From: Neoroseomonas lacus
GTDB taxonomy: Bacteria > Pseudomonadota > Alphaproteobacteria > Acetobacterales > Acetobacteraceae
Direction: 5' to 3'
Assembly (NCBI RefSeq): GCF_014644535.1
Contig: NZ_BMKW01000013.1
Span: forward strand, 62,345-126,344
Length of the DNA: 64,000 nucleotides
In this document: one piece after another, positions 8,774-57,572 of the stretch
How the letters are laid out: every line of letters begins with the position of its first letter
How positions within the stretch are numbered: position 1 is the stretch's first letter
Notes under the pieces: generated by a model
What the model was told of the DNA's origin: nothing
Seen by the model: only the letters and a program-made list of their open reading frames with translations
Database searches by the model: none
Made by a program: the position numbers and the translations under genes

Positions 8774-9013
8774 GGAAAGGGCCTTTGCCCCTCTCCGGAC
8801 CTCTCCCCACCAAAGGCCCGTGGACTTTGGACACCGATACCGGGCGTTGGGCGAGCGGGGGCCTTCCCGCAAGCGGGACAGGCGCCGCGCCCGGTGTCCG
8901 GCGCGGCGTCTCAACGTCGACAACACCGCTGGACCTCGCTCCAAGGTCAAGGTGTCCAGAGGCCCTTAGGCCTTTGGCGGGGTGAGGTTCGGAGAGGGGC
9001 AGCGCCGCTCTCC
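8774..9013. repeat. Composite inverted-repeat element, copy A
   Basis: Fills most of the 343-nt gap between the ybbA- and ybbP-like genes. The left arm (about 8774-8842) reads as hairpin GGGCCTTTGCCCC-like, then a CCTCTCCCCACC linker, then AAAGGCCCGTGGACTTTGG and GGACACCGATACC. The right arm (about 8948-9013) is the reverse complement of the same pattern. The central 105 bp is unlike the centres of the other copies. No ORF is supported. Confidence 0.8.
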
Positions 9014-9090
9014 GAGGCCACGACCACCGTAAGGATCGCGCCTATGGGGTGGCGCCCCTCACCGGCGACCTTCCGGGGCCTTCCCGCGTC

Positions 9091-11589
9091 ATGAACACCC
9101 TCTCCCTCGCCCTCCGCTTCGCGCGCCGCGACTTGCGCGGTGGCGTGAAGGGCCTGCGCATCGTGCTCGCCTGCCTGGCGCTTGGCGTCGCCGCCATCAC
9201 CGCCGTCGGTACGCTGCGAGCGGGTGTCGAGGCCGGCATCGCCGCCGATGGGGCCCGCATCCTGGGTGGTGAGGTCGAGATCGCCTCCCAGCAGGGACCG
9301 CTGCCGCAGGAAGCGATCGACTGGGTCACCACGCAACGGGCGCGGCTGTCGCGCGTCACCACCATGCGGGCGATGGCCGTCGCCCCTGACGGTGAGCGCA
9401 CCCTCGTCGAACTCAAGGCGGTGGACGACGCCTATCCGTTGTTCGGCGAGTTGGTGCTCGACCCGCCGGGCCAACTGGCGCCCGGCGAGGCGGCGGTGGA
9501 ACGCGTCGTGCTCGACCGGCTCGGCCTGGCGCCGGGGGCTGTCATCCGCATCGGCGAGGCGCGCCTGACCCTGCGCGGCACCATCGCGACGGAACCCGAC
9601 AAGGTCGCCCGCCCGGCGATCTTCGGGCCGCGCGTGATGATCGGCATGGCGGACCTGGCGACGACGGGGCTGTTGCAGCCGGGCAGCCTGGTCTCCTTCG
9701 AATACCGCCTCGCCCTGCCGGAAGGGGCAGACCGCCGCGCCTTCGCCGAGGCGCTGCGCGCCGCCTTCCCGCAGAATGGCTGGCGCATCCGCACGGCCGA
9801 CGCGGCCGCGCCCTCGGTCAACCGCTTCGTTGATCGCGCCGCCTTCTTTTTAACGCTGGCCAGCCTGACGGCCCTGCTGGTGGGCGGCATCGGCGTGGCG
9901 ACGGGAGTACGCGCCTGGCTCGACCAGCGGGCGCGCACCATCGCAACCTTGCGCTGCCTCGGTGCCTCGGCGCGGGTGATTTTCGTGACCTACCTGATGC
10001 AGGTGCTCGCCCTGGCGGTCCTCGGCATCGCCATCGGGCTGGTGGCGGGCTTCGGGCTGACCACCGTGGCGGCGACGGTCCTGGCCGATTCCCTGCCGGT
10101 GCCGCCGCGGCTCGGCTTCTATCCGGCGGTGCTGGGGCTGGCCTCGCTCTATGGGCTGCTGACGGCGCTGGCCTTTGCGCTGTGGCCGCTCGGGCGCGCG
10201 ATGGAGATCCCCGGCGCGGCGCTGTTCCGCGACACGCTGCAGCCGGCCGGGGTGCGGCCGCGCCTCACCCTGGTGGCGGGCACGGTGGCCGCCGGGCTGG
10301 CGCTGGCGGTGCTGATCATCGGCACGGCCGAGAACCGGGCCTTCGCCGCGTATTTCGTTGGCGGCGCGGTGGCGACGCTGGTGGTCTTCCGCCTCGGCGC
10401 CGTGGCGCTGATGGCGGCCGCCCGGCGCTTCCGCACGGTGCGCCGGCCGTCGCTGCGGCTGGGGCTGGCCAATCTGCACCGGCCGGGGGCGCCGACGCCG
10501 CTCATTCTCGTCTCGCTCGGCATCGGGCTGACCACGCTCGCCGCGGTGGCGCTGATCGAGGGCAATCTACGCCGCCAGATCGGAGACCAATTGCCGGCGG
10601 CGGCGCCGAATTTCTATTTCATCGACATCCAGTCCGACCAGGTGGCGGCGTTCGACCGCGTCGCCGCCGCCCAGCCCAGCGTCAGCGAGGTCCAGCATGT
10701 GCCCTCGATGCGCGCACGGATCGTCGCGCTGAACGGTGTGCCGGTCGAACAGGTGCAGACCACGCCGGAGACCGCCTGGGCGCTGCGCGGGGATCGTGGC
10801 CTGACCTATGCGGCGAGGCCGCCGGAGGGCACGCGGATCGTCCGGGGCGCATGGTGGCCGGCCGACTACAGCGGGCCGCCGCTGGTCTCCTTCGACCAGA
10901 CCCTGGCGCGCGGCTGGGGGGTGGGGATCGGTGACACCATCACGGTGAACGTGCTCGGCCGCGACATTCCGCTGCGCATCGCCAATCTGCGCGACATCGA
11001 ATGGCGCGGGCTGGGGCTGAACTTCGTGCTGGTCGCCTCGCCGGGGCTGCTGTCGGCCGCGCCGCACACGCACATCGCCACGGTGCGATCGGGCACGGCG
11101 GAGGAAGGCGCGGTGCTGCGCGCGATCAGCGAGGCCTTCCCCAATGTCTCCGGCATCCGGGTACGCGATGCTCTGGAACAGGTGGCCGAGTTGCTCGGGA
11201 AGATCGGCACGGCGCTGACCGCCACCGCCTCCCTGACGCTGGCCGCCGGGGCGCTGGTGCTGGCCGGGGCGGTGGCGGCCGGGCAGCGGCGGCGGGTGCG
11301 CGACGCGGTGGTGCTGAAGGTCGTCGGTGCCACGCGCGCGCAGATCCGCCGGGCCTTCCTGGTCGAATTCGGGCTGCTGGGGGCGACCGCCGGGGTCATC
11401 GCGGCCGGCATTGGCACCGCGGCGGCCTGGGGCGTGGTGCGCTTCGTCATGGGGGCGGATTGGGTATTCCTGCCCTGGACGCTGGCCGTGACGGTGCTCG
11501 CCTGCACGGCGCTGACGCTGGCCTTCGGCTATGTCGGGACGGCGCTGGCGCTGCGGGTGCGGCCGGCACCACTGCTGCGTAATGAGTAG
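9091..11589 (+). CDS. ybbP: FtsX-family ABC transporter permease, YbbP-like
   Basis: An 832-residue membrane protein with the YbbP architecture: one N-terminal transmembrane helix (LRIVLACLALGVAAITAVG), a large periplasmic domain, three helices with the first FtsX motif (around FFLTLASLTALLVGGIGVATG), a second periplasmic domain, and a C-terminal FtsX set (ending in TLAFGYVGTALALRVRPAPLL). It works with the YbbA-like ATPase; the family is thought to move or extract lipophilic molecules at the inner membrane. The ATG at 9091 fits the family N-terminus better than the upstream in-frame codon at 9049. Confidence 0.9.
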   Translation: MNTLSLALRFARRDLRGGVKGLRIVLACLALGVAAITAVGTLRAGVEAGIAADGARILGGEVEIASQQGPLPQEAIDWVTTQRARLSRVTTMRAMAVAPDGERTLVELKAVDDAYPLFGELVLDPPGQLAPGEAAVERVVLDRLGLAPGAVIRIGEARLTLRGTIATEPDKVARPAIFGPRVMIGMADLATTGLLQPGSLVSFEYRLALPEGADRRAFAEALRAAFPQNGWRIRTADAAAPSVNRFVDRAAFFLTLASLTALLVGGIGVATGVRAWLDQRARTIATLRCLGASARVIFVTYLMQVLALAVLGIAIGLVAGFGLTTVAATVLADSLPVPPRLGFYPAVLGLASLYGLLTALAFALWPLGRAMEIPGAALFRDTLQPAGVRPRLTLVAGTVAAGLALAVLIIGTAENRAFAAYFVGGAVATLVVFRLGAVALMAAARRFRTVRRPSLRLGLANLHRPGAPTPLILVSLGIGLTTLAAVALIEGNLRRQIGDQLPAAAPNFYFIDIQSDQVAAFDRVAAAQPSVSEVQHVPSMRARIVALNGVPVEQVQTTPETAWALRGDRGLTYAARPPEGTRIVRGAWWPADYSGPPLVSFDQTLARGWGVGIGDTITVNVLGRDIPLRIANLRDIEWRGLGLNFVLVASPGLLSAAPHTHIATVRSGTAEEGAVLRAISEAFPNVSGIRVRDALEQVAELLGKIGTALTATASLTLAAGALVLAGAVAAGQRRRVRDAVVLKVVGATRAQIRRAFLVEFGLLGATAGVIAAGIGTAAAWGVVRFVMGADWVFLPWTLAVTVLACTALTLAFGYVGTALALRVRPAPLLRNE

Positions 11590-11734
11590 GTAGGGAGGGT
11601 CCGGCGGAATCGGCTGAAAACCGCGCAAAATTGCCGGAATGGACCGGTGGCGATCCCTACCACGCGCGCAATCCTTCCTGTAAGGTCGCCCCGGTCGAAT
11701 TCAACCGGCCCCGAATTTCCATCGAGGATCTGCC

Positions 11735-12331
11735 ATGTCGTACACCACCCGCTCGCGCCTGAAGCTGGCCGCGTTCGTTCTGCTGCCGCTGCTCGGCGCC
11801 TGCGCCACCACGCCGCCGCAGCCCGTGACGCCGCCGGCGCCGGTCGTCGTCTCCACCGCCAAGGAAGCTGTCGGCGTCGTCCGCAGCGTGAACCCGCGCA
11901 CCCGGCAGATCGCGATCCGCACCCCGAGCAACGAGACGGTCACTGTCGTCGCCGGCCCCGAGGTTCAGAACTTCGCGCAGATCCGCCGTGGCAACCGTGT
12001 CCGCCTGCGCTTCGAGGAAGCGGTGGCGGTGCAGCTGACCCCGCGCGGCACCAACCTGCCGGCGGAGGTGGATGTCGGCGCCGCCCGCGCCGCCCCTGGC
12101 GAGCGTCCGGCTGGCGCCGTCGTGACCACCGTGCGTGACACCGTGACCATCAACGCGGTCGACACCACGGCGAACACGGTGACCTTCACCTCCTCGCGCG
12201 GCGTGCGCCGGACTCTGCCGGTCCGCTCGCCCGAGATGCAGGCCTTCATCCGCACGATCCGCCCGGGTCAACGCGTGAATGTTGCGATCTCCGAGGCGGT
12301 CGCCCTCTCGGTCGAGCCGGCCGAGGGCTGA
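11735..12331 (+). CDS. Predicted lipoprotein, function unknown
   Basis: A 198-residue protein with a lipoprotein signal peptide: basic N-terminus, hydrophobic core and lipobox LLGAC with Cys near residue 23, then a proline-rich linker (TTPPQPVTPPAPVV). Two similar beta-rich modules follow (VGVVRSVNPRTRQIAIRTPS... and VRDTVTINAVDTTANTVTFTS...), each describing conversion-like strands and ending in a QRV/NRVR-LRFEEAVAV-type segment; this looks like an internal duplication. GAGGAT precedes the ATG. No family is recognised. A hairpin followed by TCTTT lies just after the stop. Confidence 0.78.
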   Translation: MSYTTRSRLKLAAFVLLPLLGACATTPPQPVTPPAPVVVSTAKEAVGVVRSVNPRTRQIAIRTPSNETVTVVAGPEVQNFAQIRRGNRVRLRFEEAVAVQLTPRGTNLPAEVDVGAARAAPGERPAGAVVTTVRDTVTINAVDTTANTVTFTSSRGVRRTLPVRSPEMQAFIRTIRPGQRVNVAISEAVALSVEPAEG

Positions 12332-12339
12332 GTGACGGG

Positions 12340-22143: not shown

Positions 22144-22164
22144 GGCGGGGCGGCGCTGGCGAAT

Positions 22165-22562
22165 GGAGAGGGGCGCCGCCCCTCTCCAGACCTCACCTCA
22201 CCACGGGCTCCCATCGACATTGCCCTGCAATGCCGATGGGGTCCCACAGGGTGCCCGGCACCCTGGACCGCCGGAACCGAGCGCCAGGCATCAAGGTTTG
22301 GATGCTGCGACGACACGCGCTGCGGGCATAACGGCGCCAAGGATTCCCAGGCTCCGGGCGTCGGGCATCCTCGGTCTTGCCGGCATGCCTGCCTTGCCCG
22401 ATCCCTGGCGTTGGGCAGCAGGGGCGGCCCCACCAATACGCGCCACGGCGGGCACGGCAGGTCCTTCGGGTCCCGACCCTGACGGTCATGCCCTGCGCCC
22501 CGCAATGGTGTCCAAAGGCCTCGGGCCTTTGGCGGGTTGGCTTGGAGGGGCAAAGCCCCTCC
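22165..22562. repeat. Composite inverted-repeat element, copy B
   Basis: Occupies nearly all of the 453-nt gap between the ligase/polymerase and the chain-length genes. The left end is GGAGAGGGGCGCCGCCCCTC followed by CCCATCGACATTG...CAATGCCGATGGG and CAGGGTGC...GCACCCTG hairpins. The right end (22506-22562) is the standard arm with GGTGTCC, AAAGGCC...GGCCTTT and GGAGGGGC...GCCCCTCC hairpins. No gene is supported in the gap. Confidence 0.78.
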
Positions 22563-22596
22563 AATCTTCGCGCGGGCGGGGGAATGCCATCCCCGT

Positions 22597-23535
22597 TCAA
22601 TCCCCATTGGCCACCTCCGGCGACCGCCGGGTGGCGCGGCGCGGCCGGTCCACCACCAGCTCCGGCTCCCGCCGCACCCGCTCGGCGGTGGTGAGCAGCG
22701 CCGCAGTCGGGTCGTAGCGCATCAGCAGCAGCGCCATCGCCCCCAGCAGCACCGCCATCGGCACCGTCACGCACAGCAGCGCCACCAGCAGCGGGCGGTT
22801 GGGCAGGGAGGGCCGTGCCTCGACCATCGGCGCCGAGACCAGCCGCGCCGCCACCACCTCGTCGGCCGCCACCACCAGCCCGGCGCGTTGCTGTTGGGCC
22901 AGCAACTCGTACAGGCTGTTGCGGAGGAAGATGTCGGTCTCGCGCGCGATGCGCCGCTCCAGCGCGGCGACGCGGCGGCCGGCCTGTTCGGCGAGGTCGG
23001 CGCGCACCTTGGCCTCGGCGAAGGCATGCAGGTGGCGCAGCATGGAAAGCGCCAGGCCTGCGTCCTGCTGCCCGATCTCCAGCGTCCAGGTCACCGAGGC
23101 GAGCGACTGCGTCACCGCCAGGTTGCGCGTCAGCCAGTCGAGCACGTCATCGGCGTCGACCTCGCGGTCCAGGCCGAACAACTCGCGCAGGGCACCGCCG
23201 GGCCCGGCGCGGCGGCGTTGCGTCAGCGCGGCGGCGATCGCCGTCTCGCGCACCAGCATCGCCGCGGCTTCGGGCGAGCGCAGCGCCCCGAGATAGACGG
23301 CGAAGTTCCCGTTCGGCCGGGTGTCGAGCAGGCCCGCCGGCGCGAAGGGCGAGGGCGAGAGCAGCGAGGAGACGGCGAAGGAGGTGGTCTCGGCCGGCGC
23401 CACCACCGCCTGCGCCACGAAGGCGCGCGGCATCACCATCACCACCGTCACGCCGCCGACCCACACCGCGGCGATGATGCCGAACAGCCGCCAGCGCCAC
23501 CGCCACAGCCCGGCCAGGAGCATCGGCAGGGGCAT
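22597..23535 (-). CDS. Wzz/chain-length-determinant-like polysaccharide biosynthesis protein
   Basis: A 312-residue protein with an N-terminal transmembrane helix (RLFGIIAAVWVGGVTVVMVMP), a periplasmic region rich in alpha-helix with alternating charged residues (AEAKVRADLAEQAGRRVAALERRIARET), and a C-terminal transmembrane helix (LLVALLCVTVPMAVLLGAMALLL), the topology of polysaccharide co-polymerases. No kinase domain follows. The ATG shares a base with the heparinase-like TGA (TGATG). It probably sets polymer length together with the Wzy-like protein. Confidence 0.8.
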   Translation of the reverse strand: MPLPMLLAGLWRWRWRLFGIIAAVWVGGVTVVMVMPRAFVAQAVVAPAETTSFAVSSLLSPSPFAPAGLLDTRPNGNFAVYLGALRSPEAAAMLVRETAIAAALTQRRRAGPGGALRELFGLDREVDADDVLDWLTRNLAVTQSLASVTWTLEIGQQDAGLALSMLRHLHAFAEAKVRADLAEQAGRRVAALERRIARETDIFLRNSLYELLAQQQRAGLVVAADEVVAARLVSAPMVEARPSLPNRPLLVALLCVTVPMAVLLGAMALLLMRYDPTAALLTTAERVRREPELVVDRPRRATRRSPEVANGD

Positions 23536-25511
23536 CAGCCGGCCTCGACCACGGTGGTCAAGCGCGAGACCGGCGCGACGGCGGCGAGTTCCAGCACCGT
23601 CGCCGGGTCGACGCGCCCATAGGCCGGGCTGTGCCAGCCTGACGCCAGCCGGATGCGGCAGGGTGCATCGGCCGCCAGGCGCAGCCGCGCGCGCGGACCT
23701 TGCGCGCCATCGGCCGTCACGCGCCATGCCCCGGGCGCAAGGCGCCAGCGGAGCACCAACCCCGCGAAGGGGCCGGCGACCTCGTCCTCAATGACCACGC
23801 TGTGCGTCGTGGCGTGCAGCCGCCGTTCATGCCGCCGGCTCCGCGCATCACGCATCGTCGCGCCACCGGGCACCGCCACGCAGCGCGGCCAGCGCGCGAA
23901 GAGGAAGCGGCCGACGCGCGGCATCTGGTCTTCGTCGTCGAATTGCACCGTGTTGTGGCCGGCGGTCCCGGCCAGCACCTCGGTCCACCAGCTGAAGCCG
24001 GATGGCGGGTTGTAGGCGCCGGTGCCGCCATCGGTCAGTAGCGGGGCGCCATCGAGGGCGAGGTCAAGATGCAGCAGGTCGGCCTGGGACGGGCGGAAGC
24101 GCAGGGGGGCGCCGGTACGCAGCAGGGCCTGGAAGCGTGGGGTGCGGAGGCCGAGCCAGCCTTCGCTGCGCCAGGCGAGCGGGGCACCACCAGAGGGGCG
24201 TCGCCCCTCCGGACCTCCCCACCAAAGGCCTAAAGGCCTCTGGACACCTCCTGTTGGCCTTGGGCAGGGCGGGGCGTCCGCGTCGTCGCGACCCACATCG
24301 AGCGCGACGGTGGGGCTCTCGCTTACGCCTCCTGGCGCCAAGCGGGGCGGAGCATCGGCGTCGTCAAAACCCACATCGGGAAGGAACAATGCCGCCGCGC
24401 GGCCGACACTGCCGCGCGCGTCCAGGGCGCCATGCAGCGACAGGTCCGCCAGGGCTGAATCATCCACCGGCCCGCAGCGCGGCAGTGCGCCCGTCCGGGG
24501 GTCCATCACGCGATCCAGCCACCGCGTCGCCGCCGCCGCGCGGTCGGCGAAGGGGGCGGCGAACGCCGGCGCGCCATGGCGGCGGCGGAACCATTCGGCG
24601 ACCACCAGCGTGTCCAGCAGCAGCCGATGATAGCCCGGCGAGGCCTGCGCGAAGGCGCCATCCGGCGCCACCAGCCGCGTCACCGCCCGCGCCAAGCCCC
24701 GCGCACCTCGCCGCGCCAGCGCCGCATCGCCCAGCACCAGGCCGATAACGAACAGGCCGGCCAACTCGCTGATCACATGGTTGTTGTCCTGCGCGGCGGC
24801 ATAGGCGCGCGTCGCCGCGATCCGTCGTGCATGGACGCCCAGCAGCGCCCGCATCGCCGGCGCGGGGGCACGGTCCGCCTCCAGCAACGCCAGCGCCAAG
24901 CACAGATGCACCGCCCGCAAGGCGGCTTCCTGCCCACAGGCCCAGGCCGGGCCACGATAGGACGGGTTGGCCTCGGCCCAGTCGCGCAGCACCGCCTCGG
25001 CCCGCGCCAGATGCCCGCCGCCCGGCGCCAGCCGCGCCGCCTTGGCCAGCAAGGGCAGCGCCAGCAGCCGGTTCGCCTCCCAGACCGGACGGATGTCGCC
25101 GGCCGAGAACAGGTCGAGCCCCAGCGACGGCACATCGGCGGGGAAGGCGCCATGCCAGCCGGGCGCCAGGGCAACCTCGGCGGCGGCGGCCAGCGCGGCA
25201 GCGTCGCCCTGCCCCACCGCCTCGGAGAGACGGTGCGGCAGGAATGGCCCATCCGGCAGCGCCACGTCCCGCAGCGCCCGCGCGGCGAGCCCGCTGCGCC
25301 GCCAGGCCCGATGCCACCCCGCCAACAGGCAGGCGCGCGGCCCCAGCCGCCAGGCGGCATCGGCGAGCAGCCAAAACCGCGGGGAGACCCGCACCCAAGC
25401 ACCGTCACCGCGAACGGCGGGCACGGCAGCCTCGGCCAGGGTGACGCTCTCGGTCAGGGCGGGCAATCCACAGGTTAACAATCGCCTGTAAGTTGTATAA
25501 TACTTTTCCAA
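23535..25511 (-). CDS. Heparinase II/III-like protein interrupted in frame by repeat sequence
   Basis: A 658-residue ORF. The N-terminal two-thirds are helical, typical of the alpha/alpha-toroid of heparinase II/III and alginate lyase families (AQDNNHVISELAGL, ASPGYHRLLLDTLVV). After residue 445 comes the beta-sandwich with LLHLDLALDGAPLLTDGGTGAYN and GHNTVQFDDEDQMPRVGRF. About residues 376-445 are foreign: two copies of DVGxDDADAPP and a translated repeat arm (QRPLGLWWGGPEG). The longest frame begins at a TTG inside an AT-rich promoter-like stretch; a later start such as the GTG near residue 30 is possible. Such proteins trim or degrade polymer in EPS loci. Confidence 0.8.
   Translation of the reverse strand: MEKYYTTYRRLLTCGLPALTESVTLAEAAVPAVRGDGAWVRVSPRFWLLADAAWRLGPRACLLAGWHRAWRRSGLAARALRDVALPDGPFLPHRLSEAVGQGDAAALAAAAEVALAPGWHGAFPADVPSLGLDLFSAGDIRPVWEANRLLALPLLAKAARLAPGGGHLARAEAVLRDWAEANPSYRGPAWACGQEAALRAVHLCLALALLEADRAPAPAMRALLGVHARRIAATRAYAAAQDNNHVISELAGLFVIGLVLGDAALARRGARGLARAVTRLVAPDGAFAQASPGYHRLLLDTLVVAEWFRRRHGAPAFAAPFADRAAAATRWLDRVMDPRTGALPRCGPVDDSALADLSLHGALDARGSVGRAAALFLPDVGFDDADAPPRLAPGGVSESPTVALDVGRDDADAPPCPRPTGGVQRPLGLWWGGPEGRRPSGGAPLAWRSEGWLGLRTPRFQALLRTGAPLRFRPSQADLLHLDLALDGAPLLTDGGTGAYNPPSGFSWWTEVLAGTAGHNTVQFDDEDQMPRVGRFLFARWPRCVAVPGGATMRDARSRRHERRLHATTHSVVIEDEVAGPFAGLVLRWRLAPGAWRVTADGAQGPRARLRLAADAPCRIRLASGWHSPAYGRVDPATVLELAAVAPVSRLTTVVEAG
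24192..24268. repeat. Single composite-element arm inside the heparinase-like gene
   Basis: GAGGGGCGTCGCCCCTC hairpin, CGGACCTCCCCACC linker, AAAGGCCTAAAGGCCTCTGG hairpin and GGACACCTCCTGTTGGCC, the same order as the left arm of the intergenic composites. No partner arm is present; the insertion keeps the reading frame. Confidence 0.75.
24264..24377. repeat. Two direct copies of a 36-bp segment within the heparinase-like gene
   Basis: Segments 24264-24299 and 24342-24377 match at most positions (period 78 bp). They encode GxDDADAPP-type peptides on the minus strand. They adjoin the repeat arm and are probably part of the same insertion event. Confidence 0.65.
25476..25501 (+). promoter_or_regulatory. 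Candidate promoter of the export-protein gene
   Basis: A perfect TATAAT at 25496-25501 lies in an AT-rich stretch; upstream GTTAAC/TTAACA is at an acceptable but imperfect -35 distance. The reverse strand also reads TATTAT here, so the site may serve divergent transcription of both polysaccharide arms. Confidence 0.42.
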
Positions 25512-28257: not shown

Positions 28258-28277
28258 GGGTGGCGCCGATGAAGGTT

Positions 28278-28762
28278 GGAGGGGCGTCGCCCCTCCAGGC
28301 CACCCCACCAAAGGCCCGGGGCCTTTGGAATGCCGTATGCGGGCTTTGGGCGCGGTTGCCGGGCGGTGTGCGCGGCGGGTGGAACCGGAGAGGGCTTTGC
28401 CCCCTCCGCGTGAGGCAGTGCCTCACGCCCCGCACCAAAGGCCTAAGAGTCCGTTTGGAAACAGGCCTTCCGGCGTGTTTCCGGGTCCGGCACCGGCCCG
28501 CACCCGGCCACCCATTCCAGGATACTGACGTGGGTGGCCGGGCGGGGGTGCGGGCCGGTGCCGGACTTTCCAAACAGCCTCTAAGGACCTCTGGACACCA
28601 ATACCTGGTGTTGGGCGGGTGGGCCTGGTCGGAGACAACGGGCGCATTGGGCACGGAGGCGAATCCCGGCCCTGATCCTATCTGTGGCGCCGAGCACCAA
28701 GTATCGGTGTCCAGAGGCCTTTCGGCCTTTGGTGGGGTGGTTTGGAGGGGCAAAGCCCCTCC
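28278..28762. repeat. Composite inverted-repeat element, copy D, with a nested insertion
   Basis: Spans the 479-nt gap between the export protein and the YjbH-like gene. It has a first left arm (28278-28330: GGAGGGGCGTCGCCCCTCC, then AAAGGCCCGGGGCCTTTGG), a second left arm starting near 28391 that is interrupted at 28447 by a MITE-like element and resumes at 28582, and the right arm (28700-28762). It also carries an extra GCGTGAGGCAGTGCCTCACGC hairpin. No independent gene is seen. Confidence 0.78.
28447..28581. mobile_element. 135-bp MITE-like element with 15-bp terminal inverted repeats and TAA duplication
   Basis: The ends are GAGTCCGTTTGGAAA and, on the other strand, GAGGCTGTTTGGAAA (13 of 15 identical), flanked on both sides by TAA (28444-28446 and 28582-28584). 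Inside lies a long imperfect hairpin with arms 28485-28514 and 28531-28566. Removing the element and one TAA restores the normal AAAGGCCTAAGGACCTCTGG form of the surrounding repeat arm. The size, ends and TNA-type duplication suggest a non-autonomous derivative of an IS5-family (IS1031-group-like) element; that family assignment is inference. Confidence 0.7.
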
Positions 28763-30899
28763 ATTCTTTGAGCCCACGGCGCGCCGTCTCGCCCTTGCGG
28801 TGGCGCTCCTCCTGCTGTTCTGCGCCCCGGCCCGCGCCCAGGATGTCGAGCAGATGGTCGAGGGCTCCGGCTCCGACTGGGGTGGTGTCGGCCTGATCGA
28901 GATGCGCAATGCGCGGTTCCGTCCCGATGGCACGCTGGAGGCCGGCTTCGGCCTGCGTCACCAGCGTAATTTCTGGTTCCTCAGCTTCCAGGCGTTGCCG
29001 TGGCTGGAGACCACCTTCCGGCTAAGCGAACGGCTGAACGGCACCACCGGCGAGGGGATGACCACCGACCGCTCCTTCGACATCAAGATCCGGCTGTGGG
29101 AGGAGAATGACTGGCGCCCCGCGCTGGCCCTGGGCATCCAGGACCTCGCCGGCACCGGCATCTATGGCGGCGAGTACCTCGTCGCCTCGAAGCGGCTGTG
29201 GGATTTCGACTTCACCCTCGGCGTCGGCTGGGGCCGACTCGGCACCTATGCCGATACCGCCAACCTGCTGACCGATGTGTGGAGCGGCTTCGCCGACCGC
29301 CAGCGCGATGTCGGCCAGGGCGGCACGCCGCGCTGGGGGACCTATTTTCACGGCCAGGATATCGCCTTTTTCGGCGGCATCGAGTGGTCGGTGCCGCCGA
29401 TCGACACGCCCTGGGGTGTGCTGGACGGGCTGCGCGCCAAGGTCGAGTTCAGCGGCGACCAGTTGCGCGACGAACGCGGCGGCTATCCGGGCAGCACGAC
29501 CAATCTGCGCGGGCTTGCGGCGTCGCGGGTCAATGCCGGGCTGCAATGGCAGAATGACTGGCTCGATGTCGGCATCCAGTATGTTAACGGCACGGATGTT
29601 CTGGTGCGCGCCTCGGTGCGGATGAATCCGGCGGATCCGCCGCGCGTGCCGATGCGCCCGCCGCCGGCGATGACGGCGCGGCCGGATGATGCCTCACCCC
29701 AGGCACGACTGATCGCGCCACGGCTGTTCGCCGCGCTGCGCGAGGCCGGGTTGAGCCCGCGCGCCGTCGCGATCGAAAGGGACGAGGCGCGCATCGCCGT
29801 CGGTGACGGGCGGTACCGCACCTTGGCGCAGGTGGTCGGGCGGGTGTTGCGCGCGGCGCAGCCGCTGCTGCCGCGCCAGGTGGAGCGCGTCGTGGTCGCC
29901 TGGTCGCTGTCGGGCGTGGAGATCGCCCGCATCCTGGTGCTGCGTTCGGCGATGGAGGCCGCGGCGCAAGGCCACGGCAGCGCCGAGGAGGTATTCGCCA
30001 CCGCCATCCTGATGGCGCCGGGGGACGGCTTCGAGGATGCCGTGCATGCCCCCGGCCCGTTCTTCGACTGGCATATCGAGCCCGGCGTGCGGCTGGTGCT
30101 GGGCGATCCGTCGCGCAGCGTGTTGTGGCAGGCGGCCGTGGTGGCCGGTGCGCGCGTCGAACTCGGCGCCGGCTTCTCGATCGCCGGCGGGGTGGCGCAG
30201 GTGGTGGCGCAGAATCTCGATGGCGCGGCGCCGTCGGACTCGCTGCTGCAGCCGGTGCGCTCGGACTACGCGCTCTATGCCGACCAGGGGCAGAACCTGG
30301 CGGTCACCTCGCTCTATGCCGAACGCATCTGGTCAGTCGCGCCCGATGTCTTCGCGCGGGCGACGGCGGGGTATCTGGAGCCGATGTTCGCCGGCGTCTC
30401 GGGCGAGGTGCTGTGGCGGCCGCATGACCGGCCCTTCGCCATCGGGCTCGACATCAACTACGTCGCGCAGCGCGACTTCGACCAGCGCTTCGGCGTGCAG
30501 GACTACCGGGTGACGACGGGACAGGTGTCGCTCTACCTCGACCTGCCGTGGTGGAACCTGACGACGACGCTGCGTGGCGGGCGCTACCTGGCGGGCGATT
30601 GGGGCGGCACCATCGAGGTGGCGCGGCGCTTCGATTCCGGCATCGAGGTCGGCGCCTTCGCGACGCTGACCAGCGCGTCCTTCGAGCAATTCGGCGAAGG
30701 GTCCTTTGACAAGGGGATCTTCATCCGTGTGCCACTCGACCTGTTCGGGGTGCAGACGCGCTCGAACCTCGGCGCGGTGATCCGTCCGGTGCAGCGCGAT
30801 GGCGGGCAGCGGCTGGCGGTGGAGAATCCGCTCTGGGAGGTGACGCGGGATGGGCGGGAAGAAGCGCTGCGGCGCGGGGTGGCGTGGTTCACGCGGTGA
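28737..30899 (+). CDS. YjbH-like exopolysaccharide outer-membrane protein
   Basis: About 720 residues from the GTG at 28737. A hydrophobic signal segment (LALAVALLLLFCAPARA) leads into a beta-rich porin-like N-terminal domain (GFGLRHQRNFWFLSFQALPWLETTFRLSE, GLQWQNDWLDVGIQYVNG) and a second domain (ILMAPGDGFEDAVHAPGPFFDWHIEPGVRLVLGDPSR), the YjbH arrangement. YjbH proteins act with YjbF and YjbG in polymer secretion. The GTG lies inside the repeat arm upstream; a shorter start at GTG 28800 leaves only a 13-residue signal. The native N-terminus may have been altered by the repeat. Confidence 0.85.
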   Translation: MVWRGKAPPFFEPTARRLALAVALLLLFCAPARAQDVEQMVEGSGSDWGGVGLIEMRNARFRPDGTLEAGFGLRHQRNFWFLSFQALPWLETTFRLSERLNGTTGEGMTTDRSFDIKIRLWEENDWRPALALGIQDLAGTGIYGGEYLVASKRLWDFDFTLGVGWGRLGTYADTANLLTDVWSGFADRQRDVGQGGTPRWGTYFHGQDIAFFGGIEWSVPPIDTPWGVLDGLRAKVEFSGDQLRDERGGYPGSTTNLRGLAASRVNAGLQWQNDWLDVGIQYVNGTDVLVRASVRMNPADPPRVPMRPPPAMTARPDDASPQARLIAPRLFAALREAGLSPRAVAIERDEARIAVGDGRYRTLAQVVGRVLRAAQPLLPRQVERVVVAWSLSGVEIARILVLRSAMEAAAQGHGSAEEVFATAILMAPGDGFEDAVHAPGPFFDWHIEPGVRLVLGDPSRSVLWQAAVVAGARVELGAGFSIAGGVAQVVAQNLDGAAPSDSLLQPVRSDYALYADQGQNLAVTSLYAERIWSVAPDVFARATAGYLEPMFAGVSGEVLWRPHDRPFAIGLDINYVAQRDFDQRFGVQDYRVTTGQVSLYLDLPWWNLTTTLRGGRYLAGDWGGTIEVARRFDSGIEVGAFATLTSASFEQFGEGSFDKGIFIRVPLDLFGVQTRSNLGAVIRPVQRDGGQRLAVENPLWEVTRDGREEALRRGVAWFTR

Positions 30900-30935
30900 G
30901 AAGAGCGCGCGGCGTTATCTGGCGATGAGGAACCA

Positions 30936-31181
30936 GAGAGGGGCTTTGCCCCTCTCCGGACCTCACCCCACCAAAGGCCTAAGGGCCTTTGGAAACCGAT
31001 ACCTGATGTTGGACAGGGCGGCGGGTGCACTGTGCCCGGCGCCTGGAAATCTCTCCGGGCACCGTGCCGCACGCGCCATCCCACTATCGGCACAGCAGCC
31101 TTGCCCGGCACCCGATCAGGCGGTCCAGGGTGCTCGGCACCCTGGCGGGGTGAGGCTTGGAGAGGGGCGGCGCCCCTCTCC
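30936..31181. repeat. Composite inverted-repeat element, copy E
   Basis: Fills most of the 369-nt gap between the YjbH-like and WecA-like genes. The left arm has GAGAGGGGCTTTGCCCCTCTC and AAAGGCCTAAGGGCCTTT; the right arm has the same first hairpin, but its second hairpin is CCAGGGTGCTCGGCACCCTGG (31125-31145). Outer linkers CCTCACCCC match in both. No gene is supported in the gap. Confidence 0.8.
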
Positions 31182-31268
31182 AAGCACCAGCCGATACCGT
31201 CGCGCGCCCGGGTCCGGCGCACCCCGCCGCTGGACGCCCTGCCCTGGCCGGGGCATAGCCGCCTCCCC

Positions 31269-36136: not shown

Positions 36137-36197
36137 GGGCGAGTGTCACCCCTTGAGCATCTCGGCAGGAAACTCAGTTTGAGTCGTTCGTGAAGGT

Positions 36198-36273
36198 CGA
36201 GGGGCGCCGCCCCTCGAGCACCCCGGCAGGAAACTCAGTTTCCTGCACCTTCGCTCGATTTCTGCGAAATCGA
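36198..36273. terminator. Triple hairpin array at the convergent gene ends
   Basis: Three consecutive perfect palindromes: CGAGGGGCGCCGCCCCTCG (36198-36216), GCAGGAAACTCAGTTTCCTGC (36226-36246) and TCGATTTCTGCGAAATCGA (36255-36273). They lie between the 3' ends of the MgtC-like gene and the D-threonine-aldolase-like gene, where a bidirectional terminator would be expected, but there is no T run. The first hairpin matches the first hairpin of the composite elements. Confidence 0.5.
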
Positions 36274-50096: not shown

Positions 50097-50100
50097 GACG

Positions 50101-54114: not shown

Positions 54115-54167
54115 TCATGATGGCCAGAGGGGCGGAGGCCCCGAAGAGCTGAAGCGACGCTCACCGG

Positions 54168-54192
54168 CGGGGGGGAGGACGACCCTCCCCCG
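54168..54192. terminator. Hairpin between convergent genes
   Basis: GGGGGAGG ACGA CCCTCCCCC forms a strong GC stem between the MmgE/PrpD stop and the stop of the small minus-strand gene. There is no T run, so termination efficiency is uncertain; the location suits both strands. Confidence 0.5.
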
Positions 54193-54198
54193 AGCCGA

Positions 54199-54429
54199 CT
54201 ACTTGCGCTTGCCGTCGACGCGGACGAGCTGCGAGATCGCCAGCGCGGCACGGCCGGACGCCTTCGCGATTTCGTTGTCCTGTTCCTCGATGACCTTACG
54301 GGCCGGCTCATCGCCGTCGAGCCCACCGAGGATCTCCGCGGGAACCTTGCGGTTCGAGCGGCGGCTGCCGTCTTCATAGAAAACGTCGAACAGCACGAAG
54401 TTGGCTTTGCTGCCTGGTTTGGCGGCCAT
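54199..54429 (-). CDS. Small conserved hypothetical protein
   Basis: 76 residues with a likely helical C-terminus: AAKPGSKANFVLFDVFYEDGS, then RSNRKVPAEILGGLDGDEPAR and EQDNEIAKASGRAALAISQLV. There is no signal or metal motif. The ATG is preceded by GGAGAGACAGACATG-like sequence with GGAG. It forms a minus-strand block with the 57-residue basic/acidic protein and CspA; all three are short and begin with good ribosome-binding sites. Function unknown. Confidence 0.72.
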   Translation of the reverse strand: MAAKPGSKANFVLFDVFYEDGSRRSNRKVPAEILGGLDGDEPARKVIEEQDNEIAKASGRAALAISQLVRVDGKRK

Positions 54430-54449
54430 GTCTGTCTCTCCTCCGCGCG

Positions 54450-54623
54450 TCAGTCCCGCGCGGGTTCCTCGGCCTCGGTGTTCTCGGGCTCGTCATCGTC
54501 CAGTCCGGAGGCCTTGCGCTTGGCGACCGCTTCTTCGCGTTCGCGCAGCTTCGCTTCCTTCTTGGCCTGCTTCGACCGGCTCACGTCGGCACGCTGTTGG
54601 CCGTAATTGGGCTTTCGCGCCAC
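54450..54623 (-). CDS. Very small charged protein (57 residues)
   Basis: A 57-residue ORF from a GTG with GGAGAA about 7 nt upstream. The sequence starts MARKPNYGQQRADVSRSKQA, continues with a lysine/arginine/glutamate helix (KKEAKLREREEAVAKRK), then an acidic tail (DDDEPENTEAEEPARD). It looks like a real gene: it sits 20 nt upstream of the 76-residue gene and 59 nt downstream of cspA, with coding-like GC at third positions. Such charged mini-proteins occur next to csp genes in other alphaproteobacteria, function unknown. Confidence 0.66.
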   Translation of the reverse strand: MARKPNYGQQRADVSRSKQAKKEAKLREREEAVAKRKASGLDDDEPENTEAEEPARD

Positions 54624-54682
54624 GGCGTTTCTCCGCGTGTCAGAGATGGAAAGGGCGACCCGAAGGCCGCCCCTTGGAAGTC

Positions 54683-54889
54683 TCAGGCGAGGCGGAGGTT
54701 GCCCGCCGAAATCTTGCCCTGCTGCCCGCGCTGCAGCTCGAACTCGACCTTGTCGCCTTCATTGAGGCCGTTCAGGCCGGAACGCTGCACGTCGCTGATG
54801 TGCACGAACACGTCCTTGCTGCCGTCTTCCGGCTGAATGAAGCCGTAGCCCTTGGTCGCGTTGAACCACTTAACGGTACCGATGCTCAT
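54683..54889 (-). CDS. Cold-shock protein, CspA family
   Basis: A 68-residue OB-fold protein. RNP1 is KGYGFIQP and RNP2 VFVHIS, with the usual start [16 protein letters not shown]. It binds single-stranded RNA and DNA and unwinds structured mRNA. GGAGA lies about 9 nt upstream of the ATG at 54889; a 270-nt gene-free leader region upstream could hold the long 5' leader common in csp mRNAs, but no Y-box or cold box was identified. A second cold-shock domain is in the HPF fusion at 42.5-43.0 kb. Confidence 0.96.
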
Positions 54890-55159
54890 GCCGATGTCTC
54901 CGGGTTGAGCGTTGCCGCCACACGACATTGCGCGGCGGAAATGCCGGCGCGCACGGTGCGCGACGGGCCAGCCATCGCTGCGGCTCAACCATAGGGAAGG
55001 CACGGAGAGCAGGTCCGAGATGCGGACCGGACGAGGTGACGGAGGGGATATGCGCGTTCCCTCCTCCGAATGCAAATCCAATCGGCCGCCCGACGATGCG
55101 CCCCACCGCGCACCGTGAACGACGACGCCGAGACGTTGGGCGCCCGCATCAACCGCCCA

Positions 55160-56122
55160 TCATCCCGCGCGAGCGCCGGTCGTGTTCAGGATCGGCAGCC
55201 AGCGGTCCATCTCCGCCTTCAGGAAGCCGCGCAACGCCGCCGCATCGCCGGGGCGCGGTTCGACGCCGCGCTGCGCAAAGCGCTCCTGCACCGCCGGATC
55301 GGCCAGCACCTCGAGTGTCGCCGCGCTCAGCCGCGCGACGATGGCCGGGGGTGTCGATGCCGGCGCATAGAGCGCCTGCCAGGACGAGGTCTCGTACCCC
55401 GCCACGCCGGCTTCCTGCATCGTCGGCAGGTCTGGTACCAGGCGCGACCGCCGTGCCGTCGTCACGGCCAAGCCGCGCGCGCGATTATCCTGCATCAGCG
55501 GTGCGAGCAGCGTCTGGCTGTCGATCATGAACTCCACCCGGCCGGCGATGAAATCCGTCACCGCCGCCGGCGTGCCGCGATACTGCACGATGGTGAAATC
55601 CACCCCGGCGAGCTTCTTCAGCAATTCCCCCGCGAGATGGGAGGCCGCGCCGATGCCGGTAGTCGCGAAGGTCGCCTCGCCGTTACGGCTGCGCAGCCAG
55701 GCGAGCAGGCTCGGGATATCGGTCGCCGGCACCGCCGGATTCACCGCGACAATGAAGGGCTGCTCGCCCAGCAGCGCGATCGGCGCGAAATCGGCGACGG
55801 GATCGATGCCGGAATCGGGGAACAGTGCCGGGATGACGCTATGCGCCGCGCCGTTCAGCAGCAGCGTATAGCCATCCGCGGGCGCGCGGGTGACGTTGCG
55901 CGCGCCGATCGTGCTGCCGGCGCCGGGCGTGTTCTCGATGACAATCGCCTGCCCCAGTTTGCGCGACAGCGGCTCGGACAGGATGCGCGCCACCACGTCG
56001 ATCACACCACCGGCGCCGAAGGGCACGACGACGCGCACCGGATGCGATGGATAAGGCGCCTGGGCACGGGCGATGGCCGGCGCGGCGAGCAGGGCGGCAA
56101 GCAGGGGGCGGCGTGGCAACAT
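55160..56122 (-). CDS. Bug family tripartite-tricarboxylate-transporter substrate-binding protein
   Basis: A 320-residue protein with signal RRPLLAALLAAPAIARA. Bug family motifs: RVVVPFGAGGVIDVVARILSE, GQAIVIENTPGAGSTIGARN, FATTGIGAASHLAGELL and VQYRGTPAAVTDFIAGRVE. It is a periplasmic solute receptor, apparently orphan (no TctA/TctB gene next to it). It is only moderately similar in visible motifs to the Bug protein at 50.8-51.7 kb, so the two likely bind different acids. Confidence 0.92.
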   Translation of the reverse strand: MLPRRPLLAALLAAPAIARAQAPYPSHPVRVVVPFGAGGVIDVVARILSEPLSRKLGQAIVIENTPGAGSTIGARNVTRAPADGYTLLLNGAAHSVIPALFPDSGIDPVADFAPIALLGEQPFIVAVNPAVPATDIPSLLAWLRSRNGEATFATTGIGAASHLAGELLKKLAGVDFTIVQYRGTPAAVTDFIAGRVEFMIDSQTLLAPLMQDNRARGLAVTTARRSRLVPDLPTMQEAGVAGYETSSWQALYAPASTPPAIVARLSAATLEVLADPAVQERFAQRGVEPRPGDAAALRGFLKAEMDRWLPILNTTGARAG

Positions 56123-56423
56123 CGTGATGTCTCCCGATCGATCGATCGCAGCTTAGTGTGCGCGCGGGAATGCGCCACGGCGCGCGTTCCCATGCGCGGC
56201 ACCATCCGGCGGCGCCCCCTCCAGAGGTGCATTTGGGAGGGTGCCGGATTCATGAAACGGCCCAGAACAGGGCCGCGACGATCACCCACCGGTTTGCGCG
56301 CTGCTGCCAGAAGGCGGGCCGCACCATCCCTGCCCGCTTGGGCGCCCAGTTGTCGCGCCGATGCGGCCAGTCTGTGGCGATGCGGTTGCGCCCGCGCGCC
56401 CGCCGGGCCATGACCGGGGCTGG
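56123..56423. other. 301-nt divergent gap between the Bug and rlmJ genes
   Basis: Holds GATCGATCGATCG near 56137-56149 (a short alternating repeat) and a GC-rich remainder. No gene, hairpin or clear promoter pair was found. Confidence 0.3.
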
Positions 56424-57248
56424 ATGAATTACCGTCACGCCTTCCACGCCGGCAACCACGCTGACTGCCTGAAGCACGCGCTGCTGCTGCTTTTGCTCGA
56501 CGCGCTGCGACGCAAGGAGGCGCCCTTCGCGGTGCTCGACACCCATGCCGGGCGCGGCCTCTATGACCTCGCGGCCGATGAGGCAGCGCGAACCGGCGAG
56601 GCTGCGCGTGGCGCGCTGCGGCTGCAGGGGATCACCGAGGGGCCGCTCGCCCCCTTCATCGCGGCGTTGGCGGCGCAGGGGTTTCCGGCGCGTTATCCAG
56701 GCTCCCCGGCGCTGATCCGCGCGGCGCTGCGGCCGCAGGACCGGCTCGCCTGCTGCGAATTGCACCCGGAGGACCATGCCGCGCTCCGCGCGCTGTTCGC
56801 GCGGGACCGCCAAGTGGCGGTGCATCGGCGCGACGCCTATGAGGCGATCCGCGCCCTGACACCCTTCCCGGAGCGCCGTGGCCTGGTGCTGCTCGACCCG
56901 CCCTTCGAGGCGGAGGACGAGTTTGATCGCCTCACCGCCGGGATCGTGGAGTTGCAGCGGCGGTTCCGTGCCGGGATGATTGCCGCCTGGTATCCGGTGA
57001 AACACCGCGCGCCGGTGCGCGACTTCCATGACGCGTTGCGCGGCGCCGGGGTGCGGGACGTGATCGCCACCGAGATGTGGTTGCGCGAGCCGATCGATCC
57101 CCGGCGGTTGAACGGCAGCGGGTTGCTGGTGGTGAAGGCACCCTTCGGCTTCGAGGCGGCGGCACGAGGCGTGCTCTCAGCGCTGCTGGCGGGGTTGGAG
57201 CACGAGGCCGGGGCAGGGGTGGCGGTGACGCGGGTGGTGGCGGAATGA
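56424..57248 (+). CDS. rlmJ: 23S rRNA (adenine(2030)-N6)-methyltransferase
   Basis: A 274-residue RlmJ. The N-terminus NYRHAFHAGNHADCLKH is the family hallmark, followed by VLDTHAGRGLYDL (SAM-binding), VHRRDAYEAI, and the catalytic LLDPPFE (NPPY-like). It methylates A2030 of 23S rRNA. GGGGCTGG precedes the ATG without a strong Shine-Dalgarno. The composite repeat follows its stop. Confidence 0.95.
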   Translation: MNYRHAFHAGNHADCLKHALLLLLLDALRRKEAPFAVLDTHAGRGLYDLAADEAARTGEAARGALRLQGITEGPLAPFIAALAAQGFPARYPGSPALIRAALRPQDRLACCELHPEDHAALRALFARDRQVAVHRRDAYEAIRALTPFPERRGLVLLDPPFEAEDEFDRLTAGIVELQRRFRAGMIAAWYPVKHRAPVRDFHDALRGAGVRDVIATEMWLREPIDPRRLNGSGLLVVKAPFGFEAAARGVLSALLAGLEHEAGAGVAVTRVVAE

Positions 57249-57267
57249 GAGGCGATGGGCGCGCGGT

Positions 57268-57572
57268 GAAGGGCTTTGCCCCTCTCCGGACCTCTCCCCA
57301 CCAAAGGCCTCAGGGCCTTTGGAAACCAATACCTGGCGCCAGGGTTGAACGTGTTCGCCGCCGTGCCGGGCTTTCGGATCCCGGCACCTCCTTTCGCGGC
57401 AAGCCCTCATGCCAAGGCATGGCATCGCAACAGGTCGCACCCAAAGGATGGCCGCTTGTGGCGGAGTTCAACCGCAGCCTTCCCGGCACGCGCGCCGCGC
57501 CCAGCGCCAAATTGAGGTGTCCAGAGGCCCTTAGGCCTTTGGCGGGGTGGTTTGGAGGGGCGGCGCCCCTCC
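57268..57572. repeat. Composite inverted-repeat element, copy H
   Basis: Fills nearly all of the 340-nt gap between rlmJ and gpsA. The left arm (57268-57340) has GGGCTTTGCCCC, CCTCTCCCCACC, AAAGGCCTCAGGGCCTTT and GGAAACCAATACC; the right arm (57507-57572) is its inverted counterpart and ends about 16 nt before the gpsA start. No gene is supported in the gap. Confidence 0.8.

Follow-up and report, generated by a model that had tools for sequence, protein, structure and literature searches.

Dispersed inverted repeats of Neoroseomonas lacus are built from double-hairpin arms that follow a triple-helix code behind genes

Inverted repeats recur along the window analysed here, a stretch of 64,000 nucleotides of Neoroseomonas lacus DNA, and raise the question of what their repeating unit is and what it may do behind genes. 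The initial annotation had described dispersed inverted-repeat elements at five sites. We searched the window with a covariance model of 77 positions, derived from an 80-column alignment of 47 arms, and both arms were recovered in inverted orientation at every site, which confirms that description; the E-values of these arms range from 2.1e-19 to 1.7e-6, under a model for which the arms of the five sites partly served as input. Element 1, located between an ABC-transporter ATPase gene and an FtsX-like permease gene (Pfam), consists of a left arm at 8771-8848 (plus strand, 65.3 bits) and a right arm at 8938-9016 (minus strand, 73.0 bits). Element 2 comprises a left arm at 22162-22255 (plus strand, 35.7 bits), which has a longer alternative hairpin 2, and a right arm at 22494-22567 (minus strand, 66.6 bits). 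Element 3 (28273-28767) is compound: its left arm at 28273-28347 (plus strand, 57.9 bits), about 20 bp past the stop codon of a polysaccharide export (SLBB) gene, and its right arm at 28693-28767 (minus strand, 82.3 bits), upstream of a YjbH gene (both genes by Pfam), enclose the start of a second, degenerate left arm that contains an extra hairpin (28404-28477, plus strand, 28.2 bits) and an unrelated inverted-repeat insertion. Element 4 has its arms at 30932-31010 (plus strand, 92.4 bits) and 31107-31184 (minus strand, 56.3 bits), and element 5 at 57262-57340 (plus strand, 84 bits), about 18 bp past the stop codon of rlmJ (Pfam RsmJ/RlmJ), and 57503-57577 (minus strand, 82 bits), just upstream of gpsA (Pfam). 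Additionally, single arms occur at 24187-24261 (plus strand, 67.9 bits), within a heparinase II/III-like coding sequence, and, weakly, at 36193-36262 (plus strand, 32.6 bits), between convergent genes. A known Rfam family was rejected as their identity, as the window gave no Rfam match at gathering score; the region 57200-57650 gave only sub-threshold matches.

The repeating unit is a single arm of about 75-80 bp rather than the complete element. Arms are arranged as hairpin 1, linker, hairpin 2 and tail, and each is predicted to fold as two tandem intrastrand-triplex hairpins. The G-rich strand runs in the order third strand, purine strand, loop, pyrimidine strand, which corresponds to a class I purine motif. 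The linker and the GGACACC.. tail had been listed as parts of the arm layout; they are not filler, since each co-varies with the hairpin that precedes it. Specifically, the letters after each hairpin follow a triple-helix code and change with the hairpin. In the left arm of element 4, hairpin 1 (GAGAGGGGC/GCCCCTCTC) is followed by the third strand CTCACCCC, and hairpin 2 (CCAAAGGCC/GGCCTTTGG) by AAACC, and the right arm of the same element carries a hairpin 2 of another type, CCAGGGTGCC/..GCACCCTGG. In the right arm of element 5, hairpin 1 (GGAGGGGC/GCCCCTCC) is followed by CCACCCC, and hairpin 2, ending CCTCTGG, by ACACC. By a strict script, an exact first third strand is present in 7 of 13 rows of the window, one row being the extra hairpin, and an exact second one in 5 of 8 parsed rows.

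To quantify the hairpin-1 code, we kept 133 distinct arms out of 303 profile hits (E up to 0.05) after removal of duplicates and of hits in which two hairpins could not be parsed. Linker letters match the mirrored pyrimidine strand of hairpin 1 at 97.2% of positions in all 133 arms, a rerun that dropped no row, versus 78.0% after permutation (maximum of 3000, 81.7%). The subset of 115 arms with a core of at least 6 letters and a long enough linker gives 97.4% versus 77.8% (maximum of 5000, 82.0%), and a direct-repeat rule reaches only 65.5%, so that the linker is a mirror and not a direct repeat. The 37 distinct hairpin-1/linker combinations agree at 91.8% versus 66.5% permuted, and the other genera alone (31 arms, 29 loci) at 98.8% versus 81.2% (maximum 89.1%). 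The lengths of the C runs are equal in 94.3% of the 122 of 133 arms that entered the comparison (permuted 65.3%, maximum 75.4%); the other 11 arms, with a run of 0 or 1, mostly disagree, and equality with them included is 117/133 (88.0%). Opposite A-T pairs, the linker carries T in 88 cases, A in 76 and G in 6 (115 arms). The purine motif admits A(T)AT and GGC triplets (PMC4666352), and both T and A are thus allowed at these positions. Within the stems alone, pairs with double changes are not more frequent than in shuffles (4 versus 3.4), and the number of such cells is higher. In all these covariation counts, related arms are not independent of each other, and covarying letters are no proof of a third strand in the cell.

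The coupling of the tail to hairpin 2 is looser than that of the linker to hairpin 1. After exclusion of the 45 of 303 hits lacking a parsable hairpin 2, 145 distinct arms remained. By sequence type, TTTCC in hairpin 2 is followed by AAACC in 49/70, TTCCC by AACCC in 14/16, and TCTCC by ACACC in 12/12. The code is broken by TCCCC, with the predicted ACCCC in only 2/8 arms, and by CTCCC, with CACCC in 0/4. Agreement amounts to 91.1% versus 78.0% permuted (maximum 81.7%) in the homopyrimidine subset of 115, to 81.9% versus 67.1% in all 145 arms, and to only 60.0% versus 45.5% in distinct hairpin-2 combinations. Opposite A-T pairs, the tail carries mostly A.

The genome of N. lacus holds at least 150 arms, and the 48 arms found in 800 kb suggest about 385 genome-wide. 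Arms were detected in 186 of 299 genomes of Acetobacteraceae; a class-level search of 385 genomes returned four matching genomes outside the family, and 16 genomes of other families of the class gave no match to the arm model, which together with the E-values serves as the chance baseline. Copy number varies within one genus from 1-7 arms to at least 121, and closely related species differ by the gain or loss of single arms. One species has an arm pair where a close relative (95.7% identical, one gene) has an unrelated GC hairpin at that convergent end, as judged by eye. Comparison by eye of a few orthologous sites revealed neither a target-site duplication nor a clean empty site, the junctions being rearranged or replaced. 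The two-armed plan described for the five sites is not general: low-copy relatives carry single arms, and both orientations within 450 bp are absent in 23 of 35 loci of other genera and in 27 of 27 of the low-copy clade.

Where arms are paired, the partners are less alike than random arms (similarity 0.651 versus 0.680, lower tail about 0.005, 38 pairs), and the partner is the nearest relative for 0 of 76 arms, so that recent inverted duplication is rejected. Over the 38 pairs, tail subtypes are never joined as AAACC with AAACC or GCC with GCC, six pairs join ACACC with ACACC, and eight have one unparsed tail. The centres, described earlier as unlike one another, are mostly so, but they are not quite random sequence: among 36 centres, 11 of 630 pairs show weak homology with a local score of at least 36 (reversed and shuffled controls, 0/630 each), the best score being 49 versus 32 in controls.

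Arms lie close to stop codons and seldom between divergent genes, as determined with gene calls from a simple, purpose-written codon-usage gene finder, not a published one. In 864 kb we found 25 pairs, counted as 24 sites because those starting at 28273 and 28404 share the right arm ending at 28767. Of these sites, 17 are co-directional, 7 convergent and none divergent, against 83 divergent gaps among the 280 gaps of at least 100 bp in the same 864 kb. The 35 loci of other genera comprise 24 convergent, 11 co-directional and no divergent ones, with the nearest facing stop codon at a median of 5 nt. Divergent loci number 1/40 in N. lacus and its near relatives, and 4/27 in the low-copy clade, for which 27 of 30 loci entered the position count. 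This placement is BIME-like, i.e. extragenic, at 3' ends and outside divergent promoter regions; the exceptions in 864 kb are 2 of 12 single arms and the arm at 24187. The latter lies in frame within the heparinase II/III-like gene (23535-25394, minus strand), in the linker before the Hepar_II_III_C domain, and no other of the 61 arms in 864 kb is fully contained in a called gene, indicating that in-frame insertion is rare. Rickettsia palindromic elements are likewise palindromic repeats read through in frame inside protein genes; such cases are rare here. The initial annotation had placed the elements at operon boundaries, which is half right: they are placed behind genes, but one pair splits the ABC gene pair, which abuts in 12 of 15 relatives. 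Similarly, the element between rlmJ and gpsA widens a gap that is short in many other genomes.

The arms had also been likened to BIMEs or MITEs of no described family. Our searches of the open literature brought up no description of the arm family, and the BIME-like part is supported. Enterobacterial BIME/REP sequences are mosaics in which several subtypes of palindromic unit stand in inverted orientation; they lie at gene 3' ends and keep out of divergent promoters, and the arms share all these features. They differ in that BIME/REP units measure 20-40 bp, whereas the arm measures about 75-80 bp and has two hairpins, a third-strand code and no RAYT. Rhizobium intergenic mosaic elements (RIME) are an alphaproteobacterial mosaic of large intergenic palindromes, and resemble the arms by description only. 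Bacteria have been known to carry intrastrand-triplex repeats since about 2000 (PMC4666352). Like BoxC/PIT/TM_ECO, the arms are short intergenic repeats scattered over the genome; their purine, pyrimidine and reverse-Hoogsteen blocks correspond base by base, they form inverted pairs joining different subtypes (type A with type B in 5/5 TM_ECO pairs), and they vary between close relatives (PMC4666352). By its description, TM_ECO differs in being a single 37-nt motif of class II that lies more often upstream of ORFs (PMC4666352), whereas the arms hug stop codons and carry two motifs in tandem, and their G-rich strand is of class I, with the order reverse Hoogsteen, purine, pyrimidine instead of the class II order pyrimidine, purine, reverse Hoogsteen of BoxC/TM_ECO. 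Judged by their letters, the arms would thus be BIME-like relatives of the E. coli BoxC/PIT repeats, in the other strand order and doubled.

What the arms do may be explained in several ways. Our preferred reading, to which we give about even chances, is that they act at the DNA level as bidirectional 3'-end boundaries and spread by a non-RAYT route. The arm DNA would fold into triplex hairpins when the strands part or supercoil, and behind genes such folds, single or as inverted pairs, would act in both directions, making RNA polymerase pause or stop, or taking up supercoil between adjacent transcription units; selection would keep the copies behind stop codons and mostly out of promoters. 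Similar boundary roles have been proposed for BIMEs. Triplex formation, function and mode of spread are all inferred here from sequence. Against a boundary stands the pair inside a former operon, since a strong terminator there would silence the gene behind it unless a promoter came with the element. Further counter-evidence is the scarcity of T runs after arm hairpins, the 4 divergent loci of 27 in the low-copy clade, and the arms that break the code. In E. coli, PIT/BoxC, the analogue of the arms, showed neither promoter nor terminator activity and no stable triplex in vivo (PMC4666352), which also speaks against this reading. A double-hairpin signal at the RNA level, i.e. an intrinsic-type terminator, an mRNA stabiliser or a C-rich Rho loading site, with the linker at most forming a pyrimidine-motif RNA triplex on the C-rich strand, is a less probable but serious alternative. 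It fits the closeness to stop codons in other genera, the compensatory changes seen by eye in hairpin-2 stems, another repeat family that has a mirror third strand and often a T-rich tail, and three non-arm hairpins in 864 kb with a mirror third strand, all followed by T runs. However, a T run directly follows only 9 of 321 arm hairpins, and none of the 139 with an exact third strand has one after that strand, so that a GC hairpin with T run, as in an intrinsic terminator, is rejected for the arms. Moreover, the pyrimidine motif requires T opposite A-T pairs, yet A is almost as frequent as T there in the linker and predominates in the tail; the purine motif tolerates either letter but is said not to form in RNA (PMC4666352). 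The mirror pattern is improbable as a G-quadruplex formed by the G-rich strand: although four G runs occur in several arm types, such as GGGTGGG..GGGAGGG in the low-copy clade, the common type GGGGAGAG..GAGAGGGG keeps the mirror with just two long runs, a hairpin is maintained in the complementary pyrimidine strand, and hairpin 2 (GGTTT/AAAGG) does not resemble a quadruplex. By eye, the GAGAGGGG type and hairpin 2 thus do not fit this fold.

The arms could also be selfish, non-autonomous elements whose fold serves their own copying by some enzyme, their position being what selection leaves; we consider this unlikely, though almost as plausible as the RNA signal. The range of copy numbers within one genus, the gain and loss of single arms between close species and the in-frame arm in a coding sequence agree with it. 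Against it, neither target-site duplications nor clean empty sites were found at the few sites compared, the 24 paired sites have no called gene between their arms (at one site a gene overlaps the end of the pair), and the family-wide spread with structural covariation suggests long-term constraint. A REPIN or MITE mobilised by a REP-associated tyrosine transposase, the lead given by the initial annotation, is the least probable of these readings. Like REPINs, the elements show an inverted pair around a variable centre and a high copy number, and arm-arm pairing dominates, as one RNA strand, in 27 of 30 elements of 195-275 bp. REPINs consist of two closely similar inverted REPs, however, whereas partner arms are unlike here and single arms are common in relatives. 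In the alignment of arms, no terminal GTAG or CGTC tag of the REP kind was noticed. A profile search for PF01797 (Y1/RAYT), which found its target in 5 of 14 known control genomes including E. coli, gave no match in the N. lacus genome, which also speaks against the selfish reading; matches were present in 1 of the 35 genomes of the genus (none of the 28 good ones) and in 24 of 200 from the family. As no RAYT was found in the own genome, the REPIN idea fails here, and it is rejected for the genus as far as PF01797 detects. CGTC REPs are described as missing in Acetobacteraceae (PMC3733652). Some family genomes (e.g. G083 and G191) hold both arms and a PF01797 gene.

Together, our data allow the tentative suggestion, less assured than the boundary reading itself, that a whole family may have bidirectional boundaries behind its genes made of triple-helix DNA modules, which come two in tandem in each arm and are maintained by three-strand covariation. 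This addresses the question of whether a triplex is ever selected or is a by-product of sequence composition. In E. coli the copies show "an extraordinary degree of identity" (PMC4666352), which leaves the two alternatives indistinguishable there. Repeats that diverged across genera, with third strands changing along with their hairpins, provide evidence of the type that won acceptance for RNA secondary structures; if the suggestion is true, evolution itself would testify that a third strand is under selection in bacteria. Clear predictions follow for transcript ends and supercoiling, and the Acetobacteraceae, said to lack CGTC REPs (PMC3733652), gain a large repeat population.

We built a 77-position covariance model of the arm, R1, from 47 arms of the Neoroseomonas lacus genome and the window. 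The five sites at which the initial annotation had described inverted arms are real, since R1 matches both arms at each of them with 36 to 92 bits. Additionally, it matches a lone arm at 24187-24261 and weak arms at 28404-28477 and 36193-36262. By eye, an inverted-repeat insertion unrelated to the arms lies at 28448-28580, within hairpin 2 of an arm starting near 28384; its ends are AGTCCGTTTGGAAA and, inverted, AGGCTGTTTGGAAA, its core reads CCGGCACCGGCCCGCACCC.., and CTAAG stands on either side (28443-28447 and 28581-28585). A similar core is present in N. oryzicola.

Scanning Acetobacteraceae with the model and counting copies, as had been proposed, revealed arms far beyond the five sites, in other genera as well. 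The 6.40-Mb N. lacus genome (73 contigs) holds at least 150 arms, with 150 of 3526 candidates scored; a census of 800 kb counted 48 arms (E<=0.001), a density of 60 per Mb, which extrapolates to about 385 arms for the whole genome, and the window with its 13 arms is about three times as dense as the genome. All 22 other genus genomes scanned contain an arm match, ranging from 1-7 arms in nine genomes of 2.6-4.1 Mb to at least 121 in each of six genomes. Across the family, with 15 candidates scored per genome, matches occur in at least 186 of 299 genomes and at least 67 of 102 genera. A first set of 16 genomes outside the family gave no arm match, while a class set of 385 genomes, at least five of which belong to the family (two with matches), gave four matching genomes outside it; the few out-of-family matches inspected resemble arms in plan.

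The internal order of the arm follows a rule. In a MAFFT alignment of 54 arms across genera, made with no structure-fitted model, the linker is a mirror copy of the hairpin 1 pyrimidine strand and changes together with it, as in the strand/linker combinations CCCCTCTC / CTCTCCCC, CCCCTCC / CCACCCC, CCCCTCCC / CCCTCCCC, CCCTCCC / CCCACCC and CCCTTCCC / CCCATCCC. Over all 133 parsed arms the linker agrees with the mirror rule at 97.2% of positions versus 78.0% when permuted (maximum of 3000 shuffles 81.7%), a margin which, like those of our other permutation tests, ignores the kinship of arms and overstates the evidence. The kinship effect is lessened, though not removed, in the 37 distinct combinations of 115 longer arms (91.8% versus 66.5%) and in other genera alone (31 arms, 29 loci; 98.8% versus 81.2%, maximum 89.1%). 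The linker is not filler. Read as a direct repeat, it reaches 57.5% agreement in the other-genera arms, where the mirror reading attains the value just given.

The tail follows hairpin 2 in the same way, less strictly. With hairpin 2 read outward, TTTCC is followed by AAACC in 49 of 70 arms, TTCCC by AACCC in 14 of 16 and TCTCC by ACACC in 12 of 12; the code is broken by most arms with TCCCC (ACCCC in 2 of 8) and by those with CTCCC (CACCC in 0 of 4), tails AATGCC and ACCGCC depart after a few letters, and several window arms are imperfect. Tail agreement is 91.1% versus 78.0% for the 115 arms of the homopyrimidine subset, 81.9% versus 67.1% in all 145 and 60.0% versus 45.5% in 50 distinct combinations. 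In one case, two orthologous arms differ at both letters of a base pair in the stem of hairpin 2 (CCAGAGGCC/GGCCTCTGG versus CCAAAGGCC/GGCCTTTGG). Considering the two hairpin stems alone, we counted 36 double-changed cells versus 11.8 shuffled, and 4 double-changed pairs versus 3.4.

Seen on the G-rich strand, third-strand letters run antiparallel to the purine strand, with G facing G-C pairs and A or T facing A-T pairs; PMC4666352 describes this arrangement as the purine (reverse-Hoogsteen) triplex motif. Because the letters fit this motif, each arm is predicted from its sequence to be two tandem class I intrastrand-triplex hairpins. Within 864 kb of the N. lacus genome, arms contain 58 purine-stem hairpins (stem >=7), 24 of them with an exact third strand; outside arms there are 22, with 3 exact third strands, all terminator-like with a T run, and three random sequences of that size gave 10 hairpins and no third strand. 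Over all loci collected, an exact third strand is found in 139 of 321 arm hairpins versus 33 of 136 others, the latter including some profile-missed arms and members of a second dispersed repeat family. This second family, with the plan GGGGGAGGnGAACCTCCCCC-GAA-CCCCCTCCCTTCTTTGG, is unrelated to the arms in sequence and has the same hairpin and mirror third strand: a purine stem (e.g. GGGGGAGG), the third strand CCCCCTCC, and then a T-rich tail. It occurs in the extracted loci L203 (8383), L204 (5525), L206 (4077), L208 (6043), L253 (8311), L254 (8516), L170 (5713) and others; in several species, N. marina and N. oryzicola among them, it fills the gap between rlmJ and gpsA. That an unrelated family obeys the mirror rule argues that the rule, and not the sequence, is kept.

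Among known kinds, intrastrand-triplex repeats (BoxC, PIT, TM_ECO) come closest. PMC4666352, however, describes a lone class II motif that is found more often upstream of genes, whereas the arms carry class I motifs, two in tandem, and lie mostly behind stop codons; the terms Acetobacter-, Roseomonas, Acidiphilium and Gluconacetobacter are absent from its main text. Passages of three further papers state that Acetobacteraceae lack CGTC repeats (PMC3733652), name REPs only in a general list (PMC4686929, on Acetobacter) and name none of the acetic acid bacteria looked for (PMC4060949). In agreement with the earlier impression of an undescribed family, a search of mostly open-access literature on repeats in Roseomonas/Acetobacteraceae and on triplex terminators yielded no description.

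The unit is the arm, not the whole element. Specifically, arms in low-copy genomes are solitary, often directly behind a stop codon, and in none of 27 loci of the low-copy clade do the two orientations occur less than 450 bp apart. N. marina and N. oryzicola, which share 95.7% identity along one gene of 2.5 kb, differ at one site by a pair versus a single arm and at a second in reverse; a third site is common to both and more alike than the flanks, and at a fourth one species has a pair where the other carries a GC hairpin that is unrelated. Among 38 N. lacus pairs, partner arms resemble each other less than random arms do (0.651 versus 0.680); with one tail unparsed in 8, AAACC+AAACC or GCC+GCC tails occur in none and ACACC+ACACC in 6. 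The lengths of the pairs group around 226 and 260 bp. The centres, which the initial annotation called unlike one another, are not wholly so: weak relatedness between them was found.

Presence and absence were compared at three sites. In 12 of 15 relatives the ABC-transporter ATPase and permease genes (site 8771-9016) lie end to end or overlap, and a pair separates them in N. lacus, N. terrae, the nearest metagenome bin and N. alba. Just upstream of gpsA (57262-57577), whose closest named records among the matches listed are N. terrae LMG 31159 (88% aa), a metagenome bin (87%) and N. alba (84%), all Acetobacteraceae, 3 of 80 named loci carry an R1 arm: one arm in the bin, a pair in N. terrae and the right-hand arm in N. 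alba. A different hairpin family occupies this gap in five of 23 loci inspected. In the heparinase-like gene (Hepar_II_III_C; 23535-25394, minus strand), the linker before the domain holds one in-frame arm in N. lacus and the bin, and a full pair with the reading frame open throughout in N. terrae and N. alba (L228, L229 and L230 being the loci of the three relatives); among 15 relatives searched, ten others with the gene have no arm there and two have no gene match. From these comparisons we infer that elements arrive in lineages and that arms are later exchanged or lost. No target-site duplication was demonstrable at the sites compared between relatives. Elsewhere, an arm pair coincides with a gene-order break between close species (G021 contig C41 near 171 kb versus G022 contig C2 93-102 kb), which is consistent with the instability that triplex repeats are reported to show. 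Separately, a long protein gene at 59474-62224 (minus strand) bears a 27-bp direct-repeat array, a pattern we take to be that of repetitive calcium-binding (RTX-like) proteins.

Positions relative to genes, a check that had been called for, were determined by calling genes with a simple finder based on codon usage. Of the 24 paired sites found in 864 kb, 17 are co-directional, 7 convergent and none divergent, while 83 of 280 gaps of >=100 bp are divergent; drawing sites at random from such gaps, the chance of 0/24 is near 2e-4. The twelve single arms there include two divergent ones and one (24187) within a gene. The 35 loci of other genera, a non-random sample of best-scoring arms from 24 genomes, are 24 convergent, 11 co-directional and none divergent, with the nearest facing stop codon at a median of 5 nt and within 50 nt in 34. 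Divergent loci number 1 of 40 in N. lacus and near relatives, and 4 of 27 in the low-copy clade.

As to the level at which arms would work, DNA is preferred to RNA on two grounds: A, a letter not accepted by the pyrimidine motif, occurs in the linker almost as often as T, and purine-motif triplexes reportedly do not form in RNA (PMC4666352). Counting against a role as boundaries, T runs are missing at the arms, one pair is located inside a former operon, and the E. coli analogue (BoxC/PIT) is described in the same paper as negative in assays. Arms lie behind stop codons, are used at convergent ends, pair in inverted orientation and avoid divergent promoters, which together suggest that they form a bidirectional boundary. 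The triplex fold would arise as strands part or supercoil, and the folded arm would slow or stop RNA polymerase, or absorb supercoil, between transcription units.
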